Part shown: piece by piece, positions 20,396-39,190 of the stretch
How the letters are laid out: each line of letters begins with the position of its first letter
Numbering within the stretch: the first letter of the stretch is position 1
Assembly (NCBI GenBank): GCA_024398405.1
Contig: JAKSJE010000011.1
Span: 1 to 39,190, forward strand
Direction of reading: 5' to 3'
Source: Bacteroidaceae bacterium
GTDB lineage: Bacteria; Bacteroidota; Bacteroidia; Bacteroidales; Bacteroidaceae
Length of the DNA stretch: 39,190 nucleotides
Program-made: the position numbers and the translations under genes
The notes under the pieces: generated by a model
What the model was told of the DNA's origin: nothing
The model's input: only the letters and a program-made list of their open reading frames with translations
Database searches by the model: none

Positions 20396-20534
20396 TGTTA
20401 CTAACAAGTGGTATATACCTGTTACTAACAAGTGGTATATACCTGTTACTAACAGGTGGTATATACCTGTTACTAACAAGTGGTATATAGTTGTTACTAA
20501 CAGGTGGTATATAGTTGTTACTAACAAGTGGGTA
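20396..20534. repeat. 24-bp tandem repeat array, six units
   Basis: The motif CTAACA recurs at 20401, 20425, 20449, 20473, 20497 and 20521, an exact 24-bp period. Each unit alternates a near-dyad TGTTACTAACA (odd centre) with GGTATATACC, a perfect palindrome (GGTATATAGTT in the later units). Sites are separated by about one helical turn. The period is a multiple of three, so long reading frames through it are an artefact of the repeat. Confidence 0.9.
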
Positions 20535-20538
20535 ATGT

Positions 20539-20626
20539 TAAGCGCAGTCTCCGATAGTTTTAAGCGCAGTCTCCGATAGTTTTAAGCGCAGTCTTCGATA
20601 GTTTTAAGCGCAGTCTCGGAGTTCTT
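20539..20626. repeat. 22-bp tandem repeat array, four units
   Basis: TAAGCGCAGTCT begins at 20539, 20561, 20583 and 20605, an exact 22-bp period; units one to three continue as (C/T)CGATAGTTT and the fourth diverges after CTCGGAGTT. The right-hand copy of the element has about three diverged units. Confidence 0.9.
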
Positions 20627-20634
20627 CAACGCAA

Positions 20635-20672
20635 AAACCGTCCACGGACTTTCGCAGTCCGGTGGACGGTTT
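20635..20672. other. Strong hairpin inside the composite repeat
   Basis: AAACCGTCCAC-GGACT pairs with AGTCC-G-GTGGACGGTTT around a TTCGC loop: 16 bp with a single bulged G. In the right-hand copy only the distal arm (GCAGTCCAGTGGACGGTT) is present, so the hairpin arose in this copy by an inverted duplication, or was lost in the other. Confidence 0.7.
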
Positions 20673-20741
20673 GACATTGCTGGGCGATATTACCGGGTCT
20701 TCTTGGATTTGGAGTGTCCACGGAAAGATGTACATGCGCCA

Positions 20742-20867
20742 TCGGTCTTCATAACGCTAATGACCGATTTGGGGGCGTTTCCTGACCGTAAAGAAGATTG
20801 GACGCATGACGGTTCCACTGACAGGCCATATTCCACCTGCCGGGTGGAGCTGCTCAGCATGGTGTGT
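20742..20867. other. Region between the repeat tail and pspC end
   Basis: This short non-coding stretch begins with a hairpin ATCGGTC/GACCGAT (20741-20767) directly after the conserved repeat tail. It also holds a small hairpin CCACC-TGCCG-GGTGG. No gene is supported. Confidence 0.4.
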
Positions 20868-21068
20868 TCAGCCTCTTTCTTCTGGTATGACAAATAGAAG
20901 GACTATGTAGGCGATGATTCCGCAGAAGACCGTAAACAGGGTCAGCAGCACATAGAGAACCCTGATGATAGTGGGGTCCATGTTGAGATACTTTCCCATT
21001 CCACCACAGATGCCTCCGAGCATGCGGTTGGAGCGGCTTCTTTCCAAAACACGATTGTTGAAATCCAT
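20868..21068 (-). CDS. PspC domain protein
   Basis: This 66-aa protein consists almost entirely of a PspC domain: a basic N-terminus (RVLERSRSNRMLGGICGGMGKYLNMDPTIIR) followed by one long hydrophobic segment or hairpin (about 38-62) ending VIPEERG. PspC proteins are inner-membrane proteins tied to envelope stress responses; free-standing short forms are common in Bacteroidetes. An AAGGA Shine-Dalgarno-like sequence lies just before the ATG at 21068. It follows the CvfB-like gene by 44 bp on the same strand and probably closes that operon. Confidence 0.88.
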   Translation of the reverse strand: MDFNNRVLERSRSNRMLGGICGGMGKYLNMDPTIIRVLYVLLTLFTVFCGIIAYIVLLFVIPEERG

Positions 21069-21112
21069 AATTCCTTGGGTTTTATGACTGTCGGGTTGTT
21101 TGATATTTGACG

Positions 21113-21955
21113 TTATGACTCTGCATTTTGTTGCAGGGTCAGACCATTCTCGTGAATGAGTATGAGATTTTTCTTATAGAGGTCTCCGACTGCTTTCTTG
21201 AAGACTTTCTTGCTTACTCCGAACTGGGCGTAGATGTCTTCCGCAGGGCTCTTGTCATGGTACGAACATCTGCCGTCGTTCATCTGTATGAACTCAAGCA
21301 ATTGTTTCGAGAAGTCAATCACGTGTTTTTGACCTTGCTCCTGTAGTATGAGGTCTATTTTCCCGTCTTCTCGGACATTCTTGACGAAAGCTTGCAGTTC
21401 ATCACCTGTGTGGATGTCGCGGAACAACTCGTTCTGGTATATCTGCCCACTGTACTTTCCTTCGACGATGGCCTTGAAGCCAAGTTCCGTCTTCTGTTGT
21501 ATGAGGACTTGCACTACGTCGCCATGATGGTAAGGCGGGAGTTCCTTTGATAGGAATTTCTCGATTTTAGCCGAAGCGACGATTCTGTATGTGAGACTGT
21601 CAACGTAGCAGCATACTATGTATTTCCGTCCTTGTTGCATTCGCATTTTCTGTTCACGGAACGGACAGAAGAGGTCTTTCATAAGCCCCCAGTCAAGGAA
21701 AGCGCCAAACTGGTTGGTCCATTTCACCTCGAGATATGCGATTTGTCCTACTTCGACGAGAGGGTGCTCTGTCGTGGCTATCAGACGCTCTTCCTGGTCG
21801 AGATACAGGAACACGTCAAGTTCATCACCCACGCGGCATCCATGCGGTACGTATCTTTTCGGCAGGAGTACGTCGCCCTTGTCGCCGCCATCGAGATATA
21901 CTCCGAAATCCACGATACGGCAGACTTTCATCTGGTTTCTTTTTCCTAAGTTCAT
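21113..21955 (-). CDS. CvfB-like S1 RNA-binding protein
   Basis: This 280-aa protein resembles the CvfB/YitL family: tandem S1-like beta-barrels, the first starting near [25 protein letters not shown], the second near [17 protein letters not shown], the third near [20 protein letters not shown]. They are followed by a C-terminal winged-helix part (residues about 220-275, [21 protein letters not shown]). It likely binds RNA and affects virulence- or stress-related gene expression, as CvfB does in staphylococci; its role here is unknown. Its ATG overlaps the stop of the upstream LolD-like gene (ATGA, 21952-21955), so translation is coupled. Confidence 0.88.
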
Positions 21956-22626
21956 TGTTCTGTATTTGTTTCGTCGGTCTGTATCATTCCGTCATTGAGG
22001 TGGATGGTTCTGTCGGTCAGCCTCGCAAGGTTCTCGTCATGGGTCACGATGACGAAAGTCTGTCCGAGTCGGTCTCTCAGGTCGAAGAACAACTGATGCA
22101 GTTCGGCTTTGTTCTTCGTGTCAAGACTTCCCGATGGCTCGTCGGCGAGGATGACAGAAGGATGGTTCATGAGTGCCCGTGCCACTGCAATACGTTGTTT
22201 CTCTCCACCTGAGAGTTGGGTCGGTTTATGGCTTGCGCGGTCATATAGCCCCATCATCTCGAGCAGTTCGGAGGCTTGTTCCTTTGTCGCCTTTCGTGGT
22301 TCTCCGGCAATGAGTGCCGGTATCATGATGTTCTCAATGGCGGTGAATTCGGGAAGAAGCTGGTGGAACTGGAATACGAATCCGATGTGCCTGTTGCGGA
22401 ATGTGGCCATCTCGTTCCTACGGAGTCGGCAGACATCAACTCCGTCAATGATCACAGTCCCGGTGTCCGGTGTGTCCAATGTGCCGATGATCTGGAGCAG
22501 AGTGGTCTTGCCTGCTCCGCTCGGGCCTACGATACTCACCACCTCACCTCGTGCTATGTGTAGGTCGATGCCTTTGAGGACCTGAAGGTCTCCGAAACGC
22601 TTGGTTATGTTTGTTGTTGTGATCAT
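21952..22626 (-). CDS. LolD-like ABC transporter ATP-binding protein
   Basis: This 224-aa ATPase belongs to the LolD/MacB/FtsE-type branch. Walker A is GPSGAGKTT (about 34-42), the Q-loop lies in [17 protein letters not shown], the signature is [15 protein letters not shown], Walker B with the catalytic Glu is VILADEPSG, and the switch His is in IVTHDENLA. It would power extraction of lipoproteins or another envelope substrate through a LolC/E-type permease. No permease gene is nearby, so its partner must be encoded elsewhere. It lies 37 bp after the antiporter gene and overlaps the CvfB-like gene by 4 bp. Confidence 0.9.
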
Positions 22627-22663
22627 GTCTTCTCGTAAACGATAGGCGGTTGATTTATAAACG

Positions 22664-24745
22664 CTAATTAATAGGATTGAATAAGGAAGAGGAGTCGGTG
22701 TTATTGCCGAGTTGGTCTGGATATATTACCATGAGGCTGCAGTGTGAGAACCATTCCTGCAAGTGCTTAGACAGTTTCGTCATTGGTTTCTGATAGCTGA
22801 CGCTGTCTGGTCGCGCAGACACGACTACCAGCAAATGGTCTTCCTTGACCGTGTCGCATAAATTTGAGAGATCTCTCCAGCCGTCTTTTCTGAGATAACT
22901 GCCGCGCAGGCTTTTATGATGCTTCTGGTTATGTGACCTAATGGTCTCAAGTGTTCTTCCATTTGCGTAGTAGTCAATCTTGCACCCGATTTGTTCCGCC
23001 ATCCGCGCAAGTCGTTCTACCCACCGAAGGAAGCCTTTCTCGAATTCCGCATCATCAGGCACTGCTACATGAATCTTGCGCAATGTGTTCACAGGCATGT
23101 TATATCGGACGATAATGACCTGCCGGGACATTCCCTGGAGCAGTCCTTGTGCGAAACTGCCTAAGAGTGACTTGTCATAGTCAATCTGCTTGTGCATGCC
23201 TATGATAATCTCGGATGCATCGTTCTCACGAAGGGCATGTACGACTCCGTTGACGAGATTGACTGCGAGGCGGCTCTGTACCTGAACTGGCACGTCGGCT
23301 GAAGTGCATAATTCGTGAGCCTTCGCCAGACATTCCTTGCTTTTCTTCTGGTTCTCATCAGCATTCAGCCTATCGTTGTCATTGACCACATTGAGGCAGA
23401 TTAGTCCCCGGTTCATACGAGCGTTTCGCATCATGATGGCTGTGTGGAGTATGTTGTCAATGCTGTCATAGTCATTCAACGTGACGAGTATTTTCTCGTC
23501 ATCACCTTCGTACGCACCATCTTTTGCCGCTTGTCCTTTGGTCTCAGCCAAGGTGAGCCGTCGTGCTCCGGCGTCGGTCGCTATGGAACTGATAATACAG
23601 GAGACAAGTATCATTACTACGACGCCATTAAGTACGGCGTTGCTCATCAACGGTACGCCCGGAGCAATCTGAAGACCGGCTCCCACCATGACCATGGCAA
23701 TGGCTCCTGCCGCATGGGCTTCGGATAGCCCGAACATCATGAGCCGCCTTGGAGCAGAGAAGCCGAACGACAATCCTGCCACATGTGACGCCAGGAATTT
23801 GGAGAAGGTACTGAAAACGACAATCACCAGTGCGACCAACATGGCTGAGGTGTCGGTAAACATAGGTCTCAGATTGACCAACATTCCGACGCCGACAAGG
23901 AAGTAGGGTATGAACAACGCATTGCCCACAAATTCGATGCGGTTCATCAAAGGTATGGTTCGTGGAATGAAACGATTGAAAATCAGTCCTGCCATGAATG
24001 CGCCGACCAGCCCTTCGATTCCGCAAAGTTCTGCCATCACCGCGGCGAAGAACACCATAGTGATGACAAAGGTGAACTGCACTATCCTGTCGCGGAAACG
24101 CTTAAAGAACCATCTGATGATTCTTGGAAACAAGAAGAACAGTCCTGCAAAATAGGCTGAGAATTTTATGATGAAGCACGTCCAGAACCACAGGCCGTTG
24201 TCACCCCTGTAACTTCCTGAGAGAATGGCAAGAATCAGGAGAGTGGTGAGCAGGGCAATCATAGTGGCGGCAATGGAGATGCTGACTGCTGGATTTCTCT
24301 GAAGACCGTATCGCGAGATGATAGGATAGGATACGAGCGTATGTGATCCGAATATACATGCTAGGAGAAGGGATGTCGCGGCAGGATACCCTAACAAGTA
24401 GAATCCAGAGACAAATCCGAAGGCGAACGGGATGAGTGTTGTCAGTGCGCCGAACTTCATGCCCCTTGAGATGTTCTGCTTGAATCCTTCCATGTCGATC
24501 TCGAGTCCTGCAAGCAACATGATGTAGTACATTCCGACTTTCCCGAATATCTCAAAACTCGCATCACGTTCAAGGAGGTTGAGACCATGTTCCCCAACTA
24601 GTACGCCGGCAATGATCATGCCGATGAGATGAGGTATCCGGAGTCGGTTGAATACCAGAGGCGCCATGAGGATGACAAGCAGGACAAGGAAGAAAATCCA
24701 TGTCGGGTCTTGTATCGGGAGGTTCAGGTCGAGGAATTGGGTCAT
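22664..24745 (-). CDS. CPA2-family cation/proton antiporter with C-terminal Usp-like domains
   Basis: This 693-aa membrane protein has about 12 predicted transmembrane segments in residues 10-400, of the Kef/NapA type: [24 protein letters not shown] near the N-terminus and [14 protein letters not shown] are characteristic. The cytosolic C-terminus from about 420 holds two UspA-like alpha/beta domains ([23 protein letters not shown] and [25 protein letters not shown]), with [24 protein letters not shown] matching the Usp nucleotide-binding loop. It probably exchanges Na+ or K+ for protons under nucleotide control. It heads the operon with the LolD-like and CvfB-like genes. Confidence 0.92.
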
Positions 24746-24825
24746 TGAGTCCTATATCGGGTATTGGTGGTCAAAGACTACCGGATGGTGAATGCGACAG
24801 CGGAAAGAGCTGCCGCTTGCGGTTG

Positions 24826-25827
24826 CTATTTGTTCGCTATCAGATATTCGGCTATCTGGACGGCATTCAGAGCGGCTCCTTTACGTATCTGGTCGGCGGA
24901 GAGCCAGAATGTGATACCGTTGTCATTTGCATAGTCCTTACGTATGCGCCCGACGAACACCTCGTCCTTGCCGGCTGTATAAAGTGGCATCGGGTATTGC
25001 CTGTTGGCGGGGTCGTCCTGGAGGATGACTCCTGGCGCTTCGCGGAGTGCCTGACTGACCTCCTCCACAGACAACGGATGTTCCGTCTCGATCCATACGG
25101 CTTCTGAATGGGAACGGAGGGATGGGACTCTGACACACATCGCCGAGCAACGTACATCGGAGTGCAGAATCTTACGTGTCTCATCAAACATTTTCTGCTC
25201 TTCTTTTGTATATCCGCTCTCGAGGAATTCATCAATCTGAGGGATCACGTTGTAAGCCAGTTGGTATGCAAATTTGCTTACTGTCACCGGTCTGCCGTCC
25301 AGAACTTCTCTGTATTGCTGCTCAAGTTCAGCCATGGCTGATGCTCCGGCACCTGATGCTGACTGATAACTGGCAATATGAATACGGGATATGTGAGAGA
25401 GATTATCAATAGGCTTAAGGGCGACGACCATCATGATGGTGGTACAGTTAGGGTTGGCTATGATACCTCTTGGGTGGTTGAGGGCGTCCTCGGCATTGCA
25501 CTCCGGAACTACCAACGGCACGTCGCTGTCCATTCGGAACGCCTTGGAATTGTCTATCATCACGGTTCCGAAACGAGTGATGTCTGCTGCAAATTCCTTT
25601 GAGATACCTGCTCCGGCGGAAGTGAAGGCGATGTCTATGCCCTTGAAGTCGTCGTTGTGGCAAAGTTCCTTGACGATATATTCATTACCACGGTATTCGT
25701 ACTTACGTCCGGCACTGCGACTCGAGCCGAAGAGGACTAATCCGTCCATCGGGAAATTACGTTCGTCAAGAACACGGAGGAACTCCTGTCCGACAGCGCC
25801 ACTGACGCCTACTATCGCTATTTTCAT
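24826..25827 (-). CDS. asd: Aspartate-semialdehyde dehydrogenase
   Basis: This 333-aa enzyme makes L-aspartate 4-semialdehyde from aspartyl phosphate with NADPH, the branch point to lysine/diaminopimelate, threonine and methionine. The nucleotide-binding start is [18 protein letters not shown]; the catalytic Cys is C128 in NPNCTTIMM, and the catalytic His lies in [25 protein letters not shown] is the conserved substrate loop. Length and motifs are normal for the bacterial form. It follows the FKBP gene by 75 bp on the same strand and may belong to the glyS-FKBP operon. Confidence 0.95.
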
Positions 25828-25902
25828 ATAATTCTGTTTTAATGACCGCCGAGCATGGCAGCCGCAATGATACTACTATCCGGGGGATTGAACAAAGAGT
25901 GA

Positions 25903-26526
25903 CTAATGCCATGATGTATTTGTGTCAATGCCTTTCCTGTAAATCTTCGCCAGTTCCATTTCAAAAATGAGTGACGAATAGGCTGGTATTGAGGTCCTCT
26001 CAACAGTACCATAACCGAGCTCATGAGGGATATATACCACCCATCTGTCACCAACTGCCATATTCTGGAGTGCCGTGGAGAATCCGACTACAGTGTTGGC
26101 GACGCTGAGCAAAGCAGGTACATCAGTTTTGGATGCGAGAGTGTCTCCGATGTAGCTCTTGTCAAAGTTGTATCCTAAAGGGTATGTCTTTGATGGGATA
26201 AGACGTCCATAGTAATGTACCCTGACAGAGTCCCCATAAAGTGGCTTCTGCACACTTTTGCTGTCCCGGAGTGTCCTGACATATATGAAACGGTTCGTCT
26301 GCCCTGTGTAGATGGCAGTAGAATCGCCTAATGTATAAGCCTTGATAATCCTCCACGAACCATCAGCGTTAGTGCTGGCCACCTTGGCGATGGAGTCGAT
26401 GAAGGTCTTATTCCTGTTTTCCCAGTCATTGTATTCCGACTCTCCTGTTTTCTCCTCGCATGAAGACAGAACCAGGAATGTCAGCACAGTAACTGAAAGC
26501 AAAAGCAGAGTCTGTTTCTGTTTCAT
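25903..26526 (-). CDS. FKBP-type peptidyl-prolyl isomerase lipoprotein
   Basis: This 207-aa lipoprotein has a signal ending LSSC (Cys23). The start at 26526 is fixed by its ATGA overlap with the GlyRS stop; an 18-codon longer frame lacks support. After a helical linker (about 25-90) comes an FKBP domain: YGDSVRVHYYGRLIP at its start, GFSTALQNMAVGDRWVVYIPHELGYG in the middle and IPAYSSLIFEMELAKI at the end, so the prolyl-binding core seems intact. It would fold periplasmic or outer-membrane proteins. Coupling to a tRNA synthetase is a matter of co-expression and not a known functional link. Confidence 0.92.
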   Translation of the reverse strand: MKQKQTLLLLSVTVLTFLVLSSCEEKTGESEYNDWENRNKTFIDSIAKVASTNADGSWRIIKAYTLGDSTAIYTGQTNRFIYVRTLRDSKSVQKPLYGDSVRVHYYGRLIPSKTYPLGYNFDKSYIGDTLASKTDVPALLSVANTVVGFSTALQNMAVGDRWVVYIPHELGYGTVERTSIPAYSSLIFEMELAKIYRKGIDTNTSWH

Positions 26527-28064: not shown

Positions 28065-28092
28065 TTTATATCGTAAATTAAAATAATGGCGC

Positions 28093-28100
28093 AAATTTAC
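28093..28100 (-). promoter_or_regulatory. -7 box for glyS
   Basis: The minus strand reads TAAATTTG, a perfect TAnnTTTG, 28 nt before the ATG at 28064. A CTTG at 28122-28119, 18 nt upstream, is a weak -33 match. Confidence 0.6.
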
Positions 28101-28262
28101 TAAAAAAAAAGGAGAAACAAGTGCTGTTTTTGTTATTTTATGCCAAAAGTAATGGTTAAAAACAACTTCCTAATGTTTATACCATATAGAAAAATGTTTT
28201 AACCATTGCAAACGCTTGACGAAACCAAAATGCTTTCAACACTATTAGCGAAAAATCAGTTT
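28101..28262. other. AT-rich spacer with a 12-bp inverted repeat
   Basis: No gene is supported. AATGGTTAAAAAC at 28151-28163 and GTTTTAACCATT at 28196-28207 form an inverted repeat with a loop of about 32 nt, upstream of the glyS promoter. It could be an operator pair or a hairpin; nothing more can be said. Confidence 0.4.
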
Positions 28263-28464
28263 AGGTGGGTTCTATAAATTCATTTCTTGCGATTTTGAGT
28301 TTTGTTCCGAGCTGGTTGCTGTGCGGAAGTAAGGAATTATGCGGGCTTCATGACTGGCTGATAAACGGCAATCTGCTCGGAACAAAGCCAAAAGCGCTGA
28401 AAAGAACCATATCACCCATAGTTGTGAATTTACTATTTATTCGGCGAATTTTTAGAACCCACTT
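28263..28464. repeat. MITE-like element with nested inverted repeats (about 202 bp)
   Basis: The outer ends are AGGTGGGTTCTATAAATTC at 28263 and, inverted, AAGTGGGTTCTAAAAATTC at 28464, identical at 17 of 19 positions. Nested inside are TTTTGTTCCGAGC (28300-28312) and its inverted partner GCTCGGAACAAA (28375-28386), with a 62-nt core between. No reading frame of note is present, so if mobile it must be moved in trans. Related copies lie at 1-52 and 20184-20241. No target duplication longer than a TT can be proposed. It lies between the end of the Rpn gene and the glyS promoter region. Confidence 0.75.
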
Positions 28465-28530: not shown

Positions 28531-29535
28531 TCAGAGGTTGCTGATTTCTTCTTCACTAAGACCGGAATATCTTGCAATCATGGATATAGGCATATGGTCT
28601 GCTAACATAAATCTGGCTATTTCGACATTTCTGTCTGCTATACCTTCCGCTCTGCCTTCCGCTCTGCCTTCCGCCCTGCCTTCCGCTCTGCCTTCGACGA
28701 TGCCCTTTGCTCTGCCTTCGACGATGCCCTTTGCTATACCCTCGACGATGCCCTTTGCTCTGCCTTCGACGATACCTTCAGCTAAACCTTTGGCGCGACT
28801 TTCTTCCTGCCATTCGACTTTATGTTTCTCTGTGTACGTCACCCATGAGTTCTCTATGCGAACCGCATCCCAGAATTTATCATAAGCATACATCTGAGCC
28901 TCTGTATATCCTGACCTTTCAAGAATGCCAATGGCTGTGCGAATCTCGTCGTTGTCAAGTAATTCGTTGTCAACGGTATAAGTGTTATCGTGAATTTCGG
29001 TGAGAAAGCGCATCCAGAGCACTTGCATTTTCTTTGAAGAATAGTCTGCCGGTCGAAACTTCTTCAGTTCCACGAACACGAACTCCATACCTTCAAGTAC
29101 TCGCTCATTGTGTTGATCCTCCACGATGGAATAGTGATGGTAAAAATCTTCGCCATCCTCATAGTTTTCATTAACTAATGCAAGGGCATATACCGGCATC
29201 AGCTGTTCATAGTCGATGCCCTTGTCAAGTTGGTTAACATATACTTTTGAAGCATTGAAAAGCATACGTTGCATGAACCATGGCTGCCAGTGCATCTGCA
29301 TCTCCACTATAAAAGAACGCTTCATAGTGTCAAGACAGCGCACATCAACAATGGAGTTTTTCTTTTCCATCGGAGTCTCAGGTACAAGTTCGGTAGGAAG
29401 GTACTCAATGCTCACTATCTCACATCCATCTTTAAGTGGGAGCATGGCATTAAGAAAGGATATGAGCAGATTCTTATGCTCACCAAATATCCTCTTGAAA
29501 GTGAGGTCGGCACGAGGATCAAGGTATCTCGACAT
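28531..29535 (-). CDS. Rpn family recombination-promoting nuclease / PD-(D/E)XK nuclease family transposase-like
   Basis: This 334-aa protein of the PDDEXK_2/Rpn type opens RYLDPRADLTFKRIFGEHKN, the typical start. The nuclease core is VDVRCLDTMKRSFIVEMQMHWQ, giving D64, E78 and Q80 of the D-ExQ site. After about residue 245 the chain turns into 4-residue repeats of the form (A/V)-(E/K)-G-(R/I), about thirteen in total, then a short helical tail ISMIARYSGLSEEEISNL resembling a DNA-binding helix-turn-helix. E. coli Rpn proteins cut DNA and raise recA-independent recombination; these genes are abundant in Prevotella. It has its own consensus promoter and probably forms a single-gene unit. Confidence 0.9.
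   Translation of the reverse strand: MSRYLDPRADLTFKRIFGEHKNLLISFLNAMLPLKDGCEIVSIEYLPTELVPETPMEKKNSIVDVRCLDTMKRSFIVEMQMHWQPWFMQRMLFNASKVYVNQLDKGIDYEQLMPVYALALVNENYEDGEDFYHHYSIVEDQHNERVLEGMEFVFVELKKFRPADYSSKKMQVLWMRFLTEIHDNTYTVDNELLDNDEIRTAIGILERSGYTEAQMYAYDKFWDAVRIENSWVTYTEKHKVEWQEESRAKGLAEGIVEGRAKGIVEGIAKGIVEGRAKGIVEGRAEGRAEGRAEGRAEGIADRNVEIARFMLADHMPISMIARYSGLSEEEISNL
28637..28797. repeat. 12-bp coding tandem repeats in the Rpn gene
   Basis: Imperfect 12-bp units (plus-strand variants of GCTCTGCCTTCC, GACGATGCCCTT and GCTATACCTTCC) encode the (A/V)-(E/K)-G-(R/I) repeats. The period is a multiple of three, so unit gain or loss changes protein length without frameshift. Confidence 0.85.
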
Positions 29536-29624: not shown

Positions 29625-30557
29625 TCAGACCCGGCTGCGGTTTTTCATGTAGCGAGGATGGTGGTTCATAAGTTCTTCCCGTAGGTGTATCGTATTAATG
29701 TGCAGATACATTTCCGTGGTGTTTATCGACTCGTGGCCCAGCATAGTCTGTATTGCTCTGAGGTTTGCGCCGCCATCAAGGAGGCAGGTGGCAAAACTAT
29801 GCCTGAAAGTATGTGGGCTTACGGTTTTTCTGATGCCGGCGAGTTCAACGAGCTCCTTGATAATGTGGAACACCATGATGCGTGACAGGTTCTTCTTGCG
29901 GCGGTTGCTTACAAAGACATAGTCTTCATATCCTTGTTTGACATCTATGGCATTCCTGTCAACAAAATATAATCGGAGTTCTTCAATGGCTTTTGAGGAG
30001 ATAGGCACCAGTCGTTGTTTTGCGCCTTTACCTACAACACGTATGAAACCTTCGTCTAGATACAAGTCTGAGATTTTCAGGTTACAGAGTTCGCTCACTC
30101 GGAGTCCACAACTGAACAAAACCTCAATCATGGCTTTGTTCCTCTGGCCTTCAGTCTGTGACAGGTCTATCGCCTGCATGATACTGTCCACTTCATCCAC
30201 AGTAAGAACATCCGGTAAGTGTTTTGGCCTTTGCGGAAATTCAAGAAGTTCCGTCGGGTCATCATCAATCTCTCCTGACATAAGGAGAAATCTGTAGAAA
30301 CTCCTTACCCCGGAAAGAATCCGGGATAAGGATAGTGGGTGAATGCCGAGGTCGATAAGAATCGCAGAAAACTGATGGAAATCGTTCAGCGCAGGCGACA
30401 TGAGGTTGATTTTCTCCGCCTCAGCAAACTCGGTGAACTTCTTCAGATCCCTTTGGTAGGCCTCCACGGTATTATCAGAGAATGACTTCTCTAACTTCAG
30501 ATATTGGTAGTATCTTCTCTGCAACTGTTGGATGTCTTTCGGGGGCATCGGAATCAT
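29625..30557 (-). CDS. xerD: Tyrosine recombinase XerD
   Basis: This 310-aa tyrosine recombinase should resolve chromosome dimers at dif. I start it at ATG 30557, which overlaps the stop of the small Cys-rich gene as ATGA; a start at 30572 would add five residues. The N-terminal SAM-like core-binding domain begins YYQYLKLEKSFSDNTVEAYQRDL. The catalytic residues are visible: Arg in FSCGLRVSELCNL, Lys in VVGKGAKQRLVPI, HxxR in SPHTFRHSFATCLLDGG, His in MLGHESINTTEMYLHI, and Tyr in the same segment. The length fits housekeeping XerD and not an integrase. Its coupling to an iron-uptake operon is unusual and is discussed under findings. Confidence 0.92.
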   Translation of the reverse strand: MIPMPPKDIQQLQRRYYQYLKLEKSFSDNTVEAYQRDLKKFTEFAEAEKINLMSPALNDFHQFSAILIDLGIHPLSLSRILSGVRSFYRFLLMSGEIDDDPTELLEFPQRPKHLPDVLTVDEVDSIMQAIDLSQTEGQRNKAMIEVLFSCGLRVSELCNLKISDLYLDEGFIRVVGKGAKQRLVPISSKAIEELRLYFVDRNAIDVKQGYEDYVFVSNRRKKNLSRIMVFHIIKELVELAGIRKTVSPHTFRHSFATCLLDGGANLRAIQTMLGHESINTTEMYLHINTIHLREELMNHHPRYMKNRSRV

Positions 30558-30712
30558 CGTCTTAACTTGCAATCAGCGTCGCAACCATCACACCGGGACT
30601 TGTCATCACATGGTGAACCGGTTTTCCCTTTGCCGGAGAACCTCTCATACAGTTTCCACGCTGTGAACACGATTGCCAACGACACGATGATTATGACAGC
30701 CAAATCCTGCAT
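30554..30712 (-). CDS. FeoB-associated Cys-rich membrane microprotein
   Basis: This 52-aa protein is easily missed because of its size. It begins MQDLAVIIIVSLAIVFTAWKLY, a single membrane span with the N-terminus out or in unknown, then a basic stretch and a Cys cluster PCDDKSRCDGCDADCKLRR with four Cys spaced C-x5-C-x2-C-x3-C. The layout matches the FeoB-associated Cys-rich membrane proteins (PF12669 type) that accompany feoB in many anaerobes; the Cys residues may bind iron or sense redox state. It starts 4 bp after the stop of the outer-membrane barrel gene and overlaps xerD by 4 bp, so it lies in the feoAB operon, one gene removed from feoB. Confidence 0.85.
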   Translation of the reverse strand: MQDLAVIIIVSLAIVFTAWKLYERFSGKGKTGSPCDDKSRCDGCDADCKLRR

Positions 30713-31244: not shown

Positions 31245-31280
31245 TTTTGTTTTTGATTAAGTTGTTTGTTAATAAGGTAA

Positions 31281-33680
31281 TTACAAAATCAGCACTGCTG
31301 ACTGATAGATTATCATTGAACAAAGCCACGCAAGAACCATTGAATACATAATGGTGAACAAAGCCCATCTCCAATGTCCCGACTCATGGCTGATGACTAT
31401 GCAGGTAGGGATGCATGGAACATACAGCAGTACGAATACCATTAACGCAAGTGCCGCGGCAGGGGTCATCCCGCCGTTCGCGATAATCTTGGAAAGACGA
31501 GAACTGCTATCTTCTCCTGCTTCCTCACCTCCGTATGGGGCTCTTGCCATCTCAGCCTGGTCGCCGGAATATAGTACACCCATCGTCGATGCCACGATTT
31601 CCTTTGCACCGATGCCGGAGATGAGACTGACTCCTTCTTTCCATCCGAGACCGCAAGGTCTTATGGCGGGCTCCACAAACTTGCCCAACTGACCGATGTA
31701 GCTTTGCTCCATACGCGCTTCTTCTGAAAGTCCGTCGGTGTGAGGAAAGTACGAGAGCACCCAGATGATGATACTTGCTGCGAGTATGGTGGTTCCCATC
31801 TTACGAAGATACTGCTTGCCCTTTTCCCAGGTATGACGGGTGACTGATTTGGCAGATGGCAAGCGGTAAGGTGGAAGTTCCATTACGAACGGACTCGTAT
31901 CGCCCTTGACCACGAACTTGCTGAACAGATGCGCCATCAACACACTCATCACTATACCGGTAAGATACAGTCCGAAAAGCACCAACGCTTCATGATGTGG
32001 GAAGAATGCCCCAATGAGAATGATATAGATTGGAAGACGTGCGGAGCATGACATAAGCGGCACGATAAGCATGGTGATAAGTCTTGACTTACGGTCTTCA
32101 ATAGTCCTTGTCGCCATCACTGCAGGGATGCTGCATCCGAAACCCATAATCATCGGTATGAACGACTTTCCGTGGAGTCCCATCCTGTGCATTATCTTAT
32201 CCATGATGAAAGCAACTCTCGCCATGTAGCCGCTGTCTTCCATCCAGGAGATAAACGCATAGAGAATCAGTATGTTGGGCAGAAAAACAATCACTCCTCC
32301 GACACCTGATATGACACCATCTACCATGAGGGCTTTCAGAATTCCTTCAGGCATGTTTTGCGTGACCGTGTCACTGATCCATCCCACCACTGAGTCAATC
32401 CAGTCCATCGGAAACTGTCCGATGGCGTAAGTACAGTAGAACATCAGGTACATCAGCAGCAAGAACACCACATATCCGAACCATCTGTTCGTCACTACGG
32501 CATCAATTCTCTTGGTCAGCACACGGCTCGGGATTCTTCTGTATTTCCTGACGAAACATTCTTTCAGCGCACCCTGTATGAAACCATATTTTGCGTCGGT
32601 CATGGCACTCTCAGAGTCTTCGTTCCATTCGTCCCTGATGGCCTGCTGACATAGTGAACGCTTGAACATAATCTGCTCGGCGTTCGGCAGACTTTGTATG
32701 AATCCTTCGACTTGCCGGTCGTTCTCTAAGAGTTTTATGGCAAGAAACCTACCTGAATAGTTATGATGGGGTTCGGGGTTCTCACGTATCGGTACTTCGA
32801 GTTCCTCAATGGCGTCTTCTATGAGTTTCCCATGATTGACATGGATATGCCTGAAGGGTGACTGTGAGTCTTTGGTGCAGACATCGATGACAGTCTGTAG
32901 CAGTTCGCTGACACCCTCTCCGGTACGACCTATTGTAGGGATGATTGGTATTCCCAGGAGTTTTCCCAGCAGGCCGATGTCGAGTTGGTTGCCACTCTCG
33001 CGGAACTCGTCATACATGTTCAGCGCCATCACAATAGGCACGTCCATGTCTATTATCTGAGTGGTGAGGTAGAGATTGCGCTCAAGGTTACTGGCGTCCA
33101 CCACATTGATTATGACATCAGGTGTCTGCTCTATGATGTATTTCCTGACGTACAACTCCTCAGGTGTATATGCGCTCAGAGAGTAAGTGCCTGGCAGATC
33201 GTATATGTTGATGTGGTAGCCGTTGAACTTCAGTTCGCCCTTCTTGGCATCTACAGTGACTCCTGAGTAGTTTCCCACTCGTTCGTGTGCATTTCCCGCT
33301 ATGTTGAACAAGGAGGTCTTGCCACAGTTCGGGTTACCTACGAACGCCACATTGATGGTTCTGCTCTTCTCTTCCGCCACCTTGCTCAGCATTTCCCCCT
33401 CGTCCACGTAGATGGAAGGTTGCTCCGTCTGGCTGTCGTGCCACTGTCTGGCCTCTTCCTTACTCACAATCTCGACAAGGTCGGCCTCGGCACGGCGAAG
33501 GCTAACCTCATAGTCCATAATCTTGTATTTCACCGGGTCGTTGAGCGGTGCGTTAAGCACAGTCTCCACCAGAACTCCTCTGATGAAGCCCATCTCGACG
33601 ATGCGCTTGCGAAATCCACCGTGGCCATGAACCTTTACGATAATGCCACTCTCGCCAGATTTCAGATCGGACAGTTTCAT
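31281..33680 (-). CDS. feoB: Ferrous iron transporter FeoA-FeoB fusion
   Basis: This 799-aa inner-membrane Fe(II) transporter carries an N-terminal FeoA (SH3-like) domain (1-72, LKSGESGIIVKVHGHGGFRKRIVEMGF) fused to the FeoB G-protein. G1 is GNPNCGKTS (115-123), G3 DLPGTYSLSAYTPEE, and G4 NMYD in place of the usual NxxD with K or M, which is normal for FeoB. The membrane core from about 390 has the two Gate motifs, including FGCSIPAVMATRTIEDRKSRL and the second ending GIGAKEIVASTMGVLY. Fused FeoAB proteins are common in Bacteroidetes. It heads the operon with the barrel, the Cys-rich protein and xerD. The start is well placed because the FeoA domain begins at residue 1. Confidence 0.96.
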   Translation of the reverse strand: MKLSDLKSGESGIIVKVHGHGGFRKRIVEMGFIRGVLVETVLNAPLNDPVKYKIMDYEVSLRRAEADLVEIVSKEEARQWHDSQTEQPSIYVDEGEMLSKVAEEKSRTINVAFVGNPNCGKTSLFNIAGNAHERVGNYSGVTVDAKKGELKFNGYHINIYDLPGTYSLSAYTPEELYVRKYIIEQTPDVIINVVDASNLERNLYLTTQIIDMDVPIVMALNMYDEFRESGNQLDIGLLGKLLGIPIIPTIGRTGEGVSELLQTVIDVCTKDSQSPFRHIHVNHGKLIEDAIEELEVPIRENPEPHHNYSGRFLAIKLLENDRQVEGFIQSLPNAEQIMFKRSLCQQAIRDEWNEDSESAMTDAKYGFIQGALKECFVRKYRRIPSRVLTKRIDAVVTNRWFGYVVFLLLMYLMFYCTYAIGQFPMDWIDSVVGWISDTVTQNMPEGILKALMVDGVISGVGGVIVFLPNILILYAFISWMEDSGYMARVAFIMDKIMHRMGLHGKSFIPMIMGFGCSIPAVMATRTIEDRKSRLITMLIVPLMSCSARLPIYIILIGAFFPHHEALVLFGLYLTGIVMSVLMAHLFSKFVVKGDTSPFVMELPPYRLPSAKSVTRHTWEKGKQYLRKMGTTILAASIIIWVLSYFPHTDGLSEEARMEQSYIGQLGKFVEPAIRPCGLGWKEGVSLISGIGAKEIVASTMGVLYSGDQAEMARAPYGGEEAGEDSSSRLSKIIANGGMTPAAALALMVFVLLYVPCIPTCIVISHESGHWRWALFTIMYSMVLAWLCSMIIYQSAVLIL

Positions 33681-33684
33681 GGTG

Positions 33685-33692
33685 CAAAGTTA
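33685..33692 (-). promoter_or_regulatory. -7 box just before feoB (possible leaderless transcript)
   Basis: The minus strand reads TAACTTTG, a perfect TAnnTTTG, ending 4 nt before the feoB ATG at 33680. A start a few bases downstream would coincide with or nearly reach the ATG. No TTTG -33 box is found at 19-21 nt, and I could not recognise a Fur box. Confidence 0.55.
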
Positions 33693-34073
33693 AGAAAAAA
33701 ATCCGAATACTACATCATTGTCAAAGATACTGATTGTTTTTTTGTGATTAGGTTTCAAGTGCCTCCCTCGCTGTCTGGCCTCTTCCAGTGCGCTCTTCAT
33801 AGTGTCGTGGTCGTTACAGCCTGAGGTCTTGAAGGTGTTATGGTGTCACGCCGTCAAGTTATCAGCCGTAGCGGGTCAGGGCTTCGGCCGACAATCCATG
33901 ACGAGACATAACGTCGCGGACGGGGCGTGACGTGCCAAACGAGACTCGGACGGATGTTTTTCCGCCGGGAGGCTTGGTCGTTTGGTAAAACATTAGTATA
34001 TTCGCGTTGGATTCACGGCCGGACGGCCTTTATGCCACATTGGCTTATTATTGACTTGTTTTGTTTTATGGTT
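33693..34073. other. Divergent intergenic region between feoB and a GH2 gene
   Basis: No gene is supported. A near-consensus plus-strand promoter for the GH2 gene may be CTTG (33973-33976), 20 nt, TATATTCG (33997-34004). An 8-bp inverted repeat GTCACGCC/GGCGTGAC spans 33845-33931 and could be a regulator site. Confidence 0.4.
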
Positions 34074-36584
34074 ATGAAGATCAGGATTATTTGTTCCGCA
34101 TTGCTGGCTTGCACAGCCTTGGTAGCGAGCGCGCAGCGTAGGGAGACTTTACTTTCAGAGGGTTGGAGATTCACTCGCTCTGCCAAGACCGAGGAGATGA
34201 TTAAGGTGGATTTCGATGACAGTGGGTGGCAGACGGTCTCAGTGCCTCACGACTGGGCCATCACGGGCCCGTTCGACAACAACATCGACAAGCAGACCGT
34301 GGCCATCGAGCAGAACGGCGAGAAGGTGGCTACGGAGAAGACGGGGCGCACGGGGTCGCTGCCGTGGGTGGGGCATGGATGGTACAGGACCACGTTCACG
34401 GTCGGCGAGGACTGCCAGCGCGCCATCCTGAATTTCGACGGGGCTATGGCGGAGCCCACCGTCTATGTCAACGGAAGGAAGGCCGGCGAATGGAAATACG
34501 GATACAACGCATTTAACATTGATGTCACTCCTTTCATCCACAATGACGGAAGCGATAACATATTGGCCGTACACCTTTTTAATATAAACGAGAGCAGCCG
34601 CTGGTACCCTGGCGCTGGCATCTACAGACCAGTCACTCTGATAGAGACACAAAGGCAGGCGATTGAGCAGTGGGGCGTCAACATGAGTACGCTGCACTTG
34701 GGCAGCGGCTATGCCACGGTGGAACTGAGCGCTGAATGCACGGGCATCGACAAGGAACACTATGTGGCCGAATTCCAGATCACCACTGACAAGGGGAACA
34801 GAAACCAGATGCTGGTGTCGTTTGACGACCAGGGCATGGCTAAGGTCATCACGCACATCGACGGGGTGACGCCGTGGACTCCTGAGACTCCGGCGCTCTA
34901 CGACCTGAACGTGTCGCTCTACACGCTCAGGGATGGCAGGAAGGACAAACGGATTGACAGCCTCACCAGGAGGGTGGGGTTCCGCACCGTCAGCTGCACG
35001 GCCGATGGCGGTTTCCGGCTCAACGGCAAGACGAGGAAAATCAAGGGTGTGTGCTTGCATCATGACCTCGGCATGATCGGGGCTGCCGTCAACAAATCGG
35101 CTGTCATCAGGCAGATCGAACTGCTCAAGACGATGGGGTGCGACGCCATACGCACTGCCCACAACATGCCGTCGCAAATCCAGATGGAGGTCTGTGACTC
35201 ATTAGGGATGATGGTGATGGCTGAGTCGTTCGATATGTGGATATACAAGAAATGCAAGAATGGCTACGCGCGATTCTTCGAGGAGTGGTGCGACCGCGAC
35301 ATCGTGAACCTCGTGAGAGCCAACCGCCTGCACCCGTCAATAGTCATGTGGAGCGTGGGCAACGAGATACCGGAGCAGAGCACCGCCGTGACGGGTCCGC
35401 GGATACTGCGCCACCTGCAGAACCTGGTGCACAAGTACGACACAAGCCGCCCGGTCACCAACGGCATGGACCGTGTGGAGGCTGCCATGAAGAGCGGATT
35501 CGCACAAGTGTCGGAGGTGCCGGGGCTGAACTACAGGACACAACTCTACCAGAAGGCATACGAGGGAACCGGACATGGTTTCATACTCGGCAGCGAGACG
35601 GCCTCCACGGTGAGCTCAAGAGGTGTGTATAAATTCCCCGTGGTACGGGCTGACGGCAAGTCCTACGCTGACGGCCAGTGCTCGGGATACGACGTGGAGG
35701 CGTGCCCGTGGTCGAACGTGCCGGAGGAGGACTGGGTGCTCCAGGACGGGAAAGACTGGGTCATCGGCGAGTTCGTATGGACGGGATTCGACTACCTCGG
35801 AGAGCCTACGCCTTACGATGACCGCTGGTCAGCACGCTCGTCATACTTCGGAATCTTCGACCTTGCGGGACTGCCGAAGGACCGCTACTATCTCTACCGC
35901 TCACGATGGAACGACGGCGAGAAGACTATACACATCCTTCCACACTGGACATGGCCGGGACGCGAGGGCGAGGTGACACCGGTGTATTGCTACACCAACT
36001 ATCCCACCGCCGAACTGTTCGTCAACGGCAAGTCACAGGGGCGCATCACGAAGAAGACCGGCATAACCGCAGGCTCGGGGAAAGACGGGAAGGTCTCCGA
36101 CATCAACGACCCGCTGCTCGACCGCTACCGCCTGCGCTGGAACAACGTGAGGTACGAGGCCGGAGAACTGAGAGTGGTGGTGTATGACACCGACGGCAAG
36201 GAGGTGGGGACAGAGACCGTACGGACAGCCGGCAAAGCCACGTCACTCAGACTTACCGGCGACCTCGGCTCCCCGGTCAGACCGCTGAAAGCCGACGGCT
36301 CCTCCATGACCTTCATCACCGTGACGGCGGTGGACAAGAGGGGAAACCTCGTGCCTGACGCTGAGAACCCGATTACGGTATCGGTCAGCGGAGCTGCCAG
36401 GTTCAGAGGCATGTGCAACGGCGACGCCACCTCGTTCGAGGTGTTCACCGAACCGACCATGAAACTGTTCCACGGACAACTCGTCATCGGCATACAGTCC
36501 AACGGCATGCCGGGGACGGCTAAGGTCAAAGTAAGCGGAAAGGGACTGGGGACCCGGACGATTGAGCTGGTGGCCGGAGACTGA
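34074..36584 (+). CDS. Glycoside hydrolase family 2 (DUF4982-type beta-galactosidase-like), secreted
   Basis: This is an 836-aa secreted exo-beta-glycosidase. I start at ATG 34074, giving signal peptide MKIRIICSALLACTALVASAQ; ATG 34068 adds two residues, and longer frames lie upstream of the candidate promoter. The sugar-binding domain contains PHDWAITGPFDNN and RWYPGAGIYRPVTL. The TIM barrel carries acid/base E431 in SVGNEIPEQ and nucleophile E566 in VIGEFVWTGFDYLGEPTPY. Beyond it are a DUF4982 domain (PVYCYTNYPTAELFVNGKSQG) and a C-terminal Ig-like domain (MTFITVTAVDKRGNLVPDAEN) ending with the GMCNGDATSFE motif. It resembles Bacteroides GalA/GalB-type enzymes; substrate unknown. Confidence 0.94.
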   Translation: MKIRIICSALLACTALVASAQRRETLLSEGWRFTRSAKTEEMIKVDFDDSGWQTVSVPHDWAITGPFDNNIDKQTVAIEQNGEKVATEKTGRTGSLPWVGHGWYRTTFTVGEDCQRAILNFDGAMAEPTVYVNGRKAGEWKYGYNAFNIDVTPFIHNDGSDNILAVHLFNINESSRWYPGAGIYRPVTLIETQRQAIEQWGVNMSTLHLGSGYATVELSAECTGIDKEHYVAEFQITTDKGNRNQMLVSFDDQGMAKVITHIDGVTPWTPETPALYDLNVSLYTLRDGRKDKRIDSLTRRVGFRTVSCTADGGFRLNGKTRKIKGVCLHHDLGMIGAAVNKSAVIRQIELLKTMGCDAIRTAHNMPSQIQMEVCDSLGMMVMAESFDMWIYKKCKNGYARFFEEWCDRDIVNLVRANRLHPSIVMWSVGNEIPEQSTAVTGPRILRHLQNLVHKYDTSRPVTNGMDRVEAAMKSGFAQVSEVPGLNYRTQLYQKAYEGTGHGFILGSETASTVSSRGVYKFPVVRADGKSYADGQCSGYDVEACPWSNVPEEDWVLQDGKDWVIGEFVWTGFDYLGEPTPYDDRWSARSSYFGIFDLAGLPKDRYYLYRSRWNDGEKTIHILPHWTWPGREGEVTPVYCYTNYPTAELFVNGKSQGRITKKTGITAGSGKDGKVSDINDPLLDRYRLRWNNVRYEAGELRVVVYDTDGKEVGTETVRTAGKATSLRLTGDLGSPVRPLKADGSSMTFITVTAVDKRGNLVPDAENPITVSVSGAARFRGMCNGDATSFEVFTEPTMKLFHGQLVIGIQSNGMPGTAKVKVSGKGLGTRTIELVAGD

Positions 36585-36987
36585 CACTCGGCAACATGCG
36601 AGAGACGAAAAACTCAGGCAATCGTATTATCCGTCGATTGCCTTCGTGTCCTCAGTCGGACGCCACCAAATTCTCAGCGGGATGTCCCCGTGTTCTCTGA
36701 CTTGGGAAGCACATACCCATACACGCTTGACATAGGGTACACCTTTTTTATATATACGCGCGCAATAGACCTCTTATTGCGGATGTGAGTCACCTGACGG
36801 CTACGATGCCGGCTTTCTTTTGCCAAAACGCATGCCCCCGACAATGCCACCCTCTGCCCTCATAGCCCTCCTGAACCTGCGTGACCGCCACCCTGCGGTG
36901 GCTGTGCGGCATCTGCCGGTAGTGCGGACGTAAGCACTATGTCAATATCGTGCGGTATGATGAAGACGATGTGTGTCTGGATGTCTG
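36585..36987. other. Intergenic region between convergent GH2 genes
   Basis: No gene is supported. Two hairpins are visible. AGGCAATCG/CGATTGCCT at 36616-36643 is followed on the minus strand by GAGTTTTT, so it could end transcription of the minus-strand GH2. GCCACC-CTGC-GGTGGC lies at 36887-36902. A stretch of T followed by TATATATA occurs near 36745-36757. Confidence 0.45.
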
Positions 36988-38814
36988 TTACTGCAGGCTT
37001 CTGCTGATTCTGTCGTTTGACTTTCTGACTTTCTCCTCGTCCAGTTTCACGACTTTCCTGTCGTATGTCATAAGGCCGTTGACCTCAATCTCGACATCGG
37101 TCGTCTGTGTATAGACCGCGGCTGAGTAACCGGCATCGATAAGTCCGTAGAGCATGTCAGTGTAACGAAGATACTGCGACGTGGCTTCCTCCGATGTCTT
37201 GTACTGGACGTAGCCCCAGTTTCTGTCGGGTTCCCACAGGTGTCCGTCAAGGGCCAGGCCTATTCCTCCGTATTCGCCGAGCACGTTGACCCTGTCGCGG
37301 TCGAACAGTATCATGGCTGGCTCAGGATAGTGATGCATGTCGAGTATGTCGCCTGTGCCTTTGTAGTGGTTTCCGCCGCTTGCGGAATTGACTAAGCGCG
37401 TGGAGTCCGTTGCCGCTGTCATGTCGGCGATTTCCTTGGTCTTGAACTGTCCCCAGGCTTCGTTGAACGGCACCCAGACGGCGATGCAAGGATAGTTGTA
37501 CAGCTGGCTGACTATCTCTGTCCATTCCTTGCGGTACTCGTACTCACTCTCAGGCGATCGTCTGTTCTCAGTCCCGTCGAAGTAATTGAGGTTTTGCCAT
37601 TGCGGCCCTTTGTCGCCACTCGGCATGTCTTGCCACACGATAACGCCCAGCCGGTCGCAGTGAGTGTACCAACGTGCCGGCTCCACCTTGATATGCTTGC
37701 GTATCATATTGAACCCAAGCGCTTTCGTCTTCTGTATGTCAAAAAGCAGCGCTTCGTCATCGGGAGCGGTATAAAGACCGTCGGGCCACCATCCCTGATC
37801 CAGGGGACCGAACATGAACAGGGGCTTGTGGTTAAGGCACATGCGGAGTATCCCGTTCTTGTCTCTTTCCTTGGTGATTATCCGCATCGCCGCATAGCTT
37901 GCCACCTCGTCAATGACTCTGTTCCCTTCCCTCAGTTGTATTTTCAGGGTGTAGAGGAACGGTGTGTCAGTGGTCCAGAGTCTCATGTCACGCGGCATGT
38001 CAATCTCGACTTTCCTGCCCCCTTCGGCCTGAGCCACTACGTCGGTGCCGTCTGCCACACTGACTGATATGTGGTTGTCGCCACCCGACACGGTCGCCTC
38101 CACTGTCAGCACGCGCCGGTCGATGTCGGGAGTGATACGAAGTCCCTGGATATAATAATAAGGCACGGGCTCCATCCAGACCGTCTGCCATATTCCAGTC
38201 ACTGGTGTGTACCAGATTCCCTCTGGGTTGTGTACTTGCTTTCCGCGAGGTTGGGTGCCATGGTCGGTGGGGTCCCATACGCGCACGGTCACTTTCTGGT
38301 TCTTCCTGTGGCTGAGATATGGCGTTATATCGACCGTGAACTCTGTGTAACCGCCTTCGTGGGTGCAGGCCTTCCTGCCGTTGACCCAGACCTCCGCTTT
38401 GTAGTCCACTGCCCCGAAATGCATGAGCACACGTCCGGACCTCCATCCTGATGGCACTGAGAATGTACGTTCATACCATAGCGTCTCCTCTGGACCGACC
38501 CTGCGGCCGACTCCCGACAGTGCCGACTCCACGGCGAACGGCACGAGGATCTCGTCATGGAACGACTCCGGGCATTCCGCGTCCTTGTCAGTAATCGCAT
38601 AGTTCCACAGTCCGTTCAGATTGACCCATGACTTGCGCTCCATGATAGGTCGAGGATACTCAGGCAACACGCCAGCGGGATTCAGCGTCTCTCCCCATTT
38701 CGTCATGATATGTCCGCTCACTGGCTGCCATTGACTGGCATCGGTGTCAGGGACTATGAGGGCTGAGGCTGCAAGTGCCATAACGAGAATGGCTGTAAGT
38801 CTTTTTCTTCCCAT
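36988..38814 (-). CDS. Glycoside hydrolase family 2 (short type), secreted
   Basis: This 608-aa secreted enzyme is a three-domain GH2 without C-terminal accessory domains. I start at ATG 38814 (MGRKRLTAILVMALAASALI signal peptide); a longer frame reaching 38859 overlaps the -7 box and is excluded. An N-terminal sugar-binding domain (LNGLWNYAITDKD, FGAVDYKAEVWVNGRKACTH) is followed by an Ig-like domain and the TIM barrel. The acid/base is E452 in WVPFNEAWGQ and the nucleophile E514 in VLGEYGGIGLALDGHLW. The NEAWG variant marks a GH2 clade distinct from the LacZ and DUF4982 types; specificity is not predictable. It is convergent with the preceding GH2. Confidence 0.93.
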   Translation of the reverse strand: MGRKRLTAILVMALAASALIVPDTDASQWQPVSGHIMTKWGETLNPAGVLPEYPRPIMERKSWVNLNGLWNYAITDKDAECPESFHDEILVPFAVESALSGVGRRVGPEETLWYERTFSVPSGWRSGRVLMHFGAVDYKAEVWVNGRKACTHEGGYTEFTVDITPYLSHRKNQKVTVRVWDPTDHGTQPRGKQVHNPEGIWYTPVTGIWQTVWMEPVPYYYIQGLRITPDIDRRVLTVEATVSGGDNHISVSVADGTDVVAQAEGGRKVEIDMPRDMRLWTTDTPFLYTLKIQLREGNRVIDEVASYAAMRIITKERDKNGILRMCLNHKPLFMFGPLDQGWWPDGLYTAPDDEALLFDIQKTKALGFNMIRKHIKVEPARWYTHCDRLGVIVWQDMPSGDKGPQWQNLNYFDGTENRRSPESEYEYRKEWTEIVSQLYNYPCIAVWVPFNEAWGQFKTKEIADMTAATDSTRLVNSASGGNHYKGTGDILDMHHYPEPAMILFDRDRVNVLGEYGGIGLALDGHLWEPDRNWGYVQYKTSEEATSQYLRYTDMLYGLIDAGYSAAVYTQTTDVEIEVNGLMTYDRKVVKLDEEKVRKSNDRISRSLQ

Positions 38815-38856
38815 CTTGATTATGAGTTTGGTTTCTATGGATAATAGTTCGTTCTG

Positions 38857-38864
38857 CAAATTTA
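38857..38864 (-). promoter_or_regulatory. -7 box for the short GH2 gene
   Basis: The minus strand reads TAAATTTG, a perfect TAnnTTTG, about 43 nt before the ATG at 38814. No good -33 TTTG is seen. Its position rules out the upstream start at 38859. Confidence 0.55.
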
Positions 38865-38963
38865 GTGATTATTTCGGAAAACCTGCTGCGAATTTTGCAT
38901 AAATCTTAGAATCGAATGCGACATCCAGCCGTTAGCCCTCGGTTCTTCGACAACGAGCGAGGC

Positions 38964-39190
38964 TGGCGCATGTGCATTTCCCATGGACACCCCAAATCAA
39001 AGAAGACCTGGTAATATCGCCCGGCGATGTCAACCGTCCACTGGACTGCGGATAACACTATCCGAGACTGCGGTTAAAAACTACCATAGACTGCGCTTGA
39101 CATTACCTACTTGTTACTAACAACTATATACCACCTGTTAGTAACAGGTATATACCACCTGTTAGTAACAGGTATATACCACTTGTTAGT
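38964..39190 (-). repeat. Composite repeat element, right copy (inverted, truncated by window end)
   Basis: The reverse complement of this interval matches 20396-20741 in order: 24-bp units built from TGTTA(C/G)TAACA and GGTATATACC (39105-39190 and beyond), about three diverged 22-bp units with AAGCGCAGTCT and ACCGCAGTCT, one hairpin arm AGTCCAGTGGACGGTT, and the tail with GGCGATATTACC, AGGTCTTCTTTGATTTGG and GTCCA, ending at TGGCGCA. The near 24-bp units here end CTATATACCACC as on the left. The left hairpin is incomplete in this copy. Confidence 0.85.

Follow-up and report, generated by a model that had tools for sequence, protein, structure and literature searches.

Plasmid iterons are tandem protein-binding sites of about 22 bp that lie on one face of the helix, and the NIME/dRS3 repeats of Neisseria are intergenic mosaic arrays of short inverted repeats, not head-to-tail arrays of 22-24-bp units. 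BrickBuilt, from Porphyromonas gingivalis, is described as an intergenic miniature inverted-repeat transposable element (MITE) with 19 copies in strain ATCC 33277, 4 of which carry both ends; the same source reports it from that one species and a close relative, with a leader and a tail flanking a 23-nt minisatellite, predicted stem-loops, and short, IS5-like terminal inverted repeats, GAGACCTTTGCA (PMC4596501; Table 2 for the repeats). Here we analysed a window of 39,190 bp from a Bacteroidaceae bacterium, which is the entire contig JAKSJE010000011.1 (C3) of draft genome GCA_024398405.1 (G000), and in which an initial annotation had described a composite repeat forming an inverted pair. The repeat is probably an intergenic, non-coding, MITE-like mosaic of about 0.5-0.75 kb, here called F1, that is dispersed through a single species; of its two copies in the window, one is almost complete and the other is truncated by the contig end. 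The evidence lies in its copy number, module order, inverted ends in two copies, mixed orientation and near-invariant palindromic core. Its copies are scattered over the intergenic regions of a single gut bacterium, and it has the look of a mobile element.

The left copy is longer than initially annotated, running on the forward strand from a leader that starts at 20248 to a terminal inverted repeat that ends at 20740; no open reading frame (ORF) of at least 100 aa overlaps this interval. The leader (20248-20395, with modules LdA at 20248-20352 and LdB at 20354-20395) is common to other copies and was delimited by a module scan, in which eleven module strings were run over chosen loci. It is followed by A24, a 24-bp tandem array with the core GTTASTAACA (20396-20532; 20388-20531 by repeat detection), and B22, a 22-bp tandem array of TTAAGCGCAGTCTCCGATAGTT (20538-20620; 20538-20617 by repeat detection), both identified by tandem-repeat detection and the module scan. 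A hairpin module with stem CCGTCCAC/GTGGACGG (20625-20682; module scan and folding) then leads into the tail (20683-20740), whose right terminal inverted repeat occupies 20722-20740 (reverse complement GGCGCATGTACATCTTTCC). The second copy, on the reverse strand, comprises a tail with terminal inverted repeat (38965-39021), a shortened hairpin module (39024-39059), a B22 array (39057-39099; 39044-39095, with a 22/23-bp period, by repeat detection) and an A24 array (39109-39190; 39104-39190 by repeat detection) that stops short where the contig ends, at 39190. A repeat search of the window paired the copies as inverted arms at 20448-20561 / 39077-39190 (114 bp, 91% identity), 20424-20505 / 39109-39190 (82 bp, 96% identity) and, in the tail, 20671-20726 / 38978-39033 (88% identity). 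The 24-bp unit had 7 matches in the window against 0 in 100 shuffles. The two composite repeats lie about where they were first placed, in inverted orientation and with arrays and tail in one order, and divergence between them, both in the number of units and at individual bases, was likewise recovered. So were the genes named between them: a FeoA/FeoB fusion, a tyrosine recombinase, a PDDEXK_2/Rpn-like nuclease and two GH2 genes.

Most A24 arrays belong to one of two mosaic elements that lie between genes, F1 and a second type, F2. G000 is a draft of 1.7 Mb in 75 contigs (150 contig ends) and is 59.7% complete. When the left element was used as the query against it, 87 pieces matched, though many overlapped one another or were the palindromic array read in reverse; the 24-bp unit pattern gave 117 matches, compared with 0 for the reversed-pattern control. 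Arrays were located at a minimum of 47 places, 45 by the module scan and 2 by the unit pattern alone; this is a lower bound, yet an array split over two contigs counts twice. Thirty of the 47 places lie no more than 60 bp from a contig end. Pairs of the same family sharing a contig were direct in two cases (C2 and C19) and inverted in three (C1, C3 and C7), excluding fragments on C18, C24 (22534-22587, a hairpin fragment), C44 and C48, as well as contigs with one F1 and one F2-type array (C33, C35, C43, C45 and C47). The initial annotation had called for such a genome-wide count of copies and orientations around its inverted pair bracketing 18.5 kb. The inverted orientation of that pair stands, but its standing as a special arrangement does not, and what the count reveals instead is a dispersed family. 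Because there are many copies, pairs in both orientations and breaks at contig ends, that the two copies in the window face each other is a chance outcome, an accident to be expected.

The inverted arms, together with the tyrosine recombinase gene between them (29625-30572, Pfam PF00589), would suit a device in which homologous or XerD-like recombination between the copies flips the segment at 20.7-38.9 kb. Inversion by homologous recombination, as initially envisaged, is possible in principle, but gains no support from copy number, pair orientations or location at contig ends, the right copy lying at a contig end as 30 of the 47 places do. The recombinase appears to be of the ordinary Xer type, and no recombination site was shown. 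Beside the left copy, the CvfB and ABC-transporter genes occur together in 26 of 27 relatives, although beyond CvfB the order differs (an FKBP-ProRS pair, in 3 of 27). We consider such a device very unlikely, and nothing points to it. An invertible DNA switch with a dedicated inverted pair was also rejected, as the copies belong to a multi-copy family with pairs in both orientations. As an inverted pair the repeat is ordinary; it is moderately interesting as a new mosaic repeat of mobile type with an almost invariant array core.

The same survey of the left junction found a GH2 relative in 1 of the 27 relatives, 8 kb away, which bears neither way on the inversion junction. By its CvfB-like protein (assigned with Pfam), the closest of these relatives is Candidatus Colivivens equi, at 78% identity; the initial attribution to Prevotella is only approximate in that, judged by this one protein, Candidatus Colivivens equi is the nearest named relative. 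In three relatives (L199, L201 and L202) the FKBP-ProRS pair lies downstream of CvfB, versus upstream in the window, a local change of gene order. Two contigs, L190 and L197, filed under Roseburia and Clostridium metagenome-assembled genomes, show the same Bacteroidales gene order and are probably misbinned or mislabelled.

The location of the arrays has a practical side. F1 and F2 arrays account for much of the fragmentation of the draft genome into contigs, and 'inverted pairs' at contig ends should be treated with caution, as they may be an effect of assembly. A study of P. gingivalis likewise states that repeats break assemblies and come to lie at the ends of contigs (PMC5771137).

The full plan of F1 is inverted repeat, leader, A24, B22, hairpin, and a tail ending in the inverted repeat; from the leader onwards these parts recur in one order and on one strand. 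The leader often has a piece of a separate MITE, G2, beside or within it; in the window a G2 remnant (GGTGGGTTCTATAAATTCA ... GGAACCCACC) lies directly left of the leader, at 20185-20241 on the forward strand. The imperfect terminal inverted repeat of F1, GGCGCATGTGCATTTTYCC, gives the element the ends of a MITE. Allowing up to 3 mismatches, this pattern occurs at 18 places in G000, and at 0 in the control. Both ends are present in only two copies, at C16:3540-4170 (631 bp) and on C7 (about 740 bp). In the C16 copy the 30-bp ends match at 24/30 positions, a score that 0 of 20000 random pairs reached. At these lengths the complete copies are short, and with no ORF of 100 aa in the window copy F1 has no transposase gene of its own, again as in a MITE. 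Outside G000, the end pattern was found in 22 of 300 family genomes, once in each except for one genome with two on different contigs; all of these matches had 1 or 2 mismatches, and the control gave 9.

After a GC-rich leader, a 22-bp array (GCGAGCGCATGACATTATCAAC) and A24, F2 elements (loci L105-L119 are examples) have a tail unlike that of F1 and a further array, of 24-bp units (ATGAACCATTCATTATCACACT). At locus C67 an F1 leader is joined to the F2 22-bp array, with the right half cut off. On the MITE-like reading of F1, a transposase acting in trans on its ends would have spread the element, the arrays would lengthen and shorten by slippage or unequal recombination, and mosaics may form through recombination within the shared arrays. 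As a separate observation, the F1 leader reads TTATCCACG at 20365-20373 and the F2 22-bp array contains TTATCAACG; both are near the DnaA box, TTATNCACA, which may be chance.

Further evidence comes from the 24-bp unit itself. Across 181 units from 40 loci, the core GTTASTAACA had 2 substitutions in 1810 positions and the spacer 410 in 1991 (Fisher p 3e-121, a guide only, as the units are non-independent and the unit finder is partly core-anchored). Within the same units, therefore, about 21% of spacer positions and 0.1% of core positions depart. A stricter collection, limited to the 93 units with a length of exactly 24 bp, had no change in GTTA or TAACA but a variable spacer. A collection anchored on the spacer instead held 129 units, of which 20 were flagged for a core change; on sorting, 16 were the same palindrome in the other-strand register, 3 were non-array matches and 1 was a real change. 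The other arrays have invariant positions too, over fewer units: three in the F1 22-bp array (47 units), three in the F2 22-bp array (48 units) and two in the F2 24-bp array (24 units). The central base of the A24 palindrome was C in 70 and G in 26 F1 units, and G in 53 and C in 2 F2 units, which is one palindrome viewed from either strand. In the single array of a genus-mate, G009, three units read GTTATTAACA, keeping the half-sites with a different centre; on sequence grounds, this retention of the half-sites around a new centre, seen in three of the four units, is as expected for a symmetric site.

Arrays of this kind could instead be neutral minisatellites, that is, functionless products of slippage homogenised by gene conversion. 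The differences in unit number, the spacer subtypes within arrays and the commonness of short intergenic tandem arrays in the host's family would all agree with this. Conversion, however, should homogenise entire units, and alone it would not leave the spacer free to vary; the persistence of half-sites in another species, despite a changed centre, also speaks against neutrality. We therefore regard the neutral account as unlikely. On the MITE-like reading, the core looks like the constrained binding site of a dimeric DNA-binding protein, and GTTA-N-TAAC may be bound by such a sequence-specific protein many times side by side. The initial annotation had offered a sequence-tolerant function as one explanation for the divergence of the copies; the opposite is seen, in that the A24 core is almost invariant. 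If the core is a binding site, one chromosome would hold more than 100 near-identical sites for a protein, spread by an element of mobile type, and would offer a ready system in which to study the seeding of regulons or nucleoid sites.

Several observations weigh against F1 as a MITE-like element with a protein-bound core. The left inverted repeat was found in just 3 of the 14 leader-bearing F1 copies (one of the 14 is cut by a contig start), and 2 of the 18 inverted-repeat places (on C18 and at C1:30646) lie outside any recognised copy. There is no clear target-site duplication, as judged from only two complete copies: none at C16 and perhaps GTC at C7. The end pattern revealed no parent transposon in G000 (60% complete) or in the 300 family genomes, in a search that was not aimed at transposase genes. 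Inverted ends were not seen in the F2 copies inspected, and on C9 and C56 the arrays are flanked by sequence that matches neither F1 nor F2. As to the core, there is the partial anchoring of the A24 unit finder already mentioned, and the fourth G009 unit, at the array end, reads GTTACTAATG, with one half-site departing. Finally, no TGTTANTAACAY palindrome, sought as the mark of an autoregulated binding protein, was found outside the arrays in G000, and no such protein was identified; a site with A or G on each of its two sides would escape this pattern.

The hairpin module and the folding of the array raise another possibility, namely that F1 acts as RNA, as a transcribed stem-loop between genes such as a terminator or stabiliser. 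Over 13 copies, 92% of cells in the hairpin stem are paired. The array folds better than shuffled sequences as DNA (z -3.5), as does the right half of the element as RNA (z -2.5). Good folding as single-stranded DNA should, however, be expected of an array of palindromes. No compensatory change was found in the hairpin, one inner pair of which is broken in 6 of the 13 copies, although these copies are too alike for a strong covariation test, and the window has no Rfam match at gathering score. Nor do the neighbouring genes lie as they would around a terminator, the strands being mixed on both sides. With crude ORF calling, in which some ORFs were merely 80-105 aa, the ORF upstream of F1 was on the plus strand in 8 of 14 cases and on the minus strand in 6, and the downstream ORF on plus in 8 of 15 and on minus in 7, so that no strand bias is visible. 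For F2, the downstream ORF, where there was one, was on plus in 8 of 12 cases and on minus in 4. An RNA element is accordingly an improbable explanation. A CRISPR array was ruled out as well on the structure of the repeats, with no search made for cas genes, as the units run head to tail and the 'spacer' part itself repeats.

F1 and its array are narrowly distributed. Samples of 17 genus genomes and 301 family genomes were searched, G000 being counted in each. The element DNA search found 2 of the 17 genus genomes, G000 and G009, and the same two of the 301 family genomes, with two candidates scored per genome. The unit pattern matched G000 and G009 within the genus, plus a single match with 2 mismatches in G003; in a phylum sample of 118 genomes including G000, it matched 1 of the 117 others, twice, both times with 2 mismatches. 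These stray 2-mismatch matches are taken as chance. The G009 array is single-copy in its genome, and its neighbours share no gene with the compared own-genome loci (protein comparison, E 1e-8). Exact matches to a two-unit pattern numbered 0 in genome-contig and viral-contig collections, in which the host is possibly not included.

A more general pattern emerged when intergenic arrays were surveyed in sampled stretches (L177-L239), using Tandem Repeats Finder at score 40 with ORFs of at least 150 aa masked. Within the host's family the commonest period was exactly 22 bp (30/109). By sample, it accounted for 2 of the 11 arrays in the own genome (the window's B22 included), 3 of the 11 from genus-mates, 15 of the 46 from 30 stretches of other family genera and 10 of the 41 from named relatives. 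Controls gave 0/3 in 200 kb of E. coli K-12 and 1/20 in block-shuffled family DNA, and inside ORFs of the same family stretches period 22 accounted for 4 of 44 arrays. Beyond the family, it was seen in 1 of the 8 arrays that other families of the class supplied and in neither of the 2 from other classes; these non-family and E. coli controls are small. Identical 9-mers were also counted by lag, without a repeat finder and with each intergenic stretch counted once per lag. Lag 22 ranked first both within the family, at 14, and among named relatives, at 16 (lags 44 and 66 were high as well); its count was 1 each for other families of the class and for other classes, and 0 for E. coli. Many of the 22-bp arrays hold barely two copies, their unit sequences differ between species, and only some are clearly palindromic. 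The host's own arrays, with periods of 22, 23 and 24, fit a 22-bp class loosely.

The period is about two helical turns. Arrays locked to it across the family might be phased sites for fast-evolving DNA-binding proteins, of which the GTTA-N-TAAC type became mobile here in MITE-like elements; we put this forward tentatively, as a possibility with the balance against it. The family-wide period is the boldest lead of the analysis, lightly tested, and offers a testable general pattern. A literature search at the level of titles and the start of abstracts found no publication on it. The nearest hints are a remark that P. gingivalis W83 has tandem repeats of 22, 23 and 41 nt (PMC4596501) and a cross-phyla survey of close direct repeats (PMC4060949). 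As a side observation, arrays with a GTACACC palindrome, resembling AAGGTGTACACCTT, were seen in Candidatus Colivivens caballi and in a genus-mate (L188, 26-109; L204, 4299-4378), and GTACACCTTTTT stands alone in the window at 36737-36764.

Two other repeats of the window may be recorded. A complete G2 MITE of 200 bp lies at 28264-28463 on the forward strand, with TTTA on both sides; G2 is a family separate from F1, and further pieces of it are found at 33-51 and, as described above, 20185-20241. G2 is very abundant, with 180 matches to its ends, GGTGGGTTCTATAAATTCA, in G000 and 0 in the control, and many of its copies too lie at contig ends. It is commonly 199 bp long, usually with target duplications of 3-4 bp by eye (TTTA, TTAT, TATC). 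A 12-bp repeat at 28634-28801 lies inside the PDDEXK_2 (Rpn-like) nuclease gene (28531-29535, minus strand), towards the end that encodes the C-terminus.

In comparison with the known systems, A24 arrays differ from plasmid iterons in being dispersed in many copies, though no systematic look for an adjacent replication gene was made. MITEPgRS/464 of P. gingivalis is likewise a MITE with internal tandem repeats, but differs from F1, by its published outline, in having 41-nt units and IS5-like ends (PMC4596501). The nearest likeness is to BrickBuilt. Set against the published description of that element, F1 works in the same way: it has a leader, 24/23-bp and 22-bp arrays, a tail and inverted ends, and most of its copies lack one end. 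It is not filed as a member, because the terminal repeats differ, those of F1 being GGCGCATGTGCATTTTYCC and not the IS5-like GAGACCTTTGCA. F1 further departs from BrickBuilt, so far as the latter is described, in its two arrays, in a second element type that shares one of them, and in the near-invariant palindromic core. What is new in F1 is the combination of two arrays per element, one array that F1 and F2 have in common, and an evidently constrained core.

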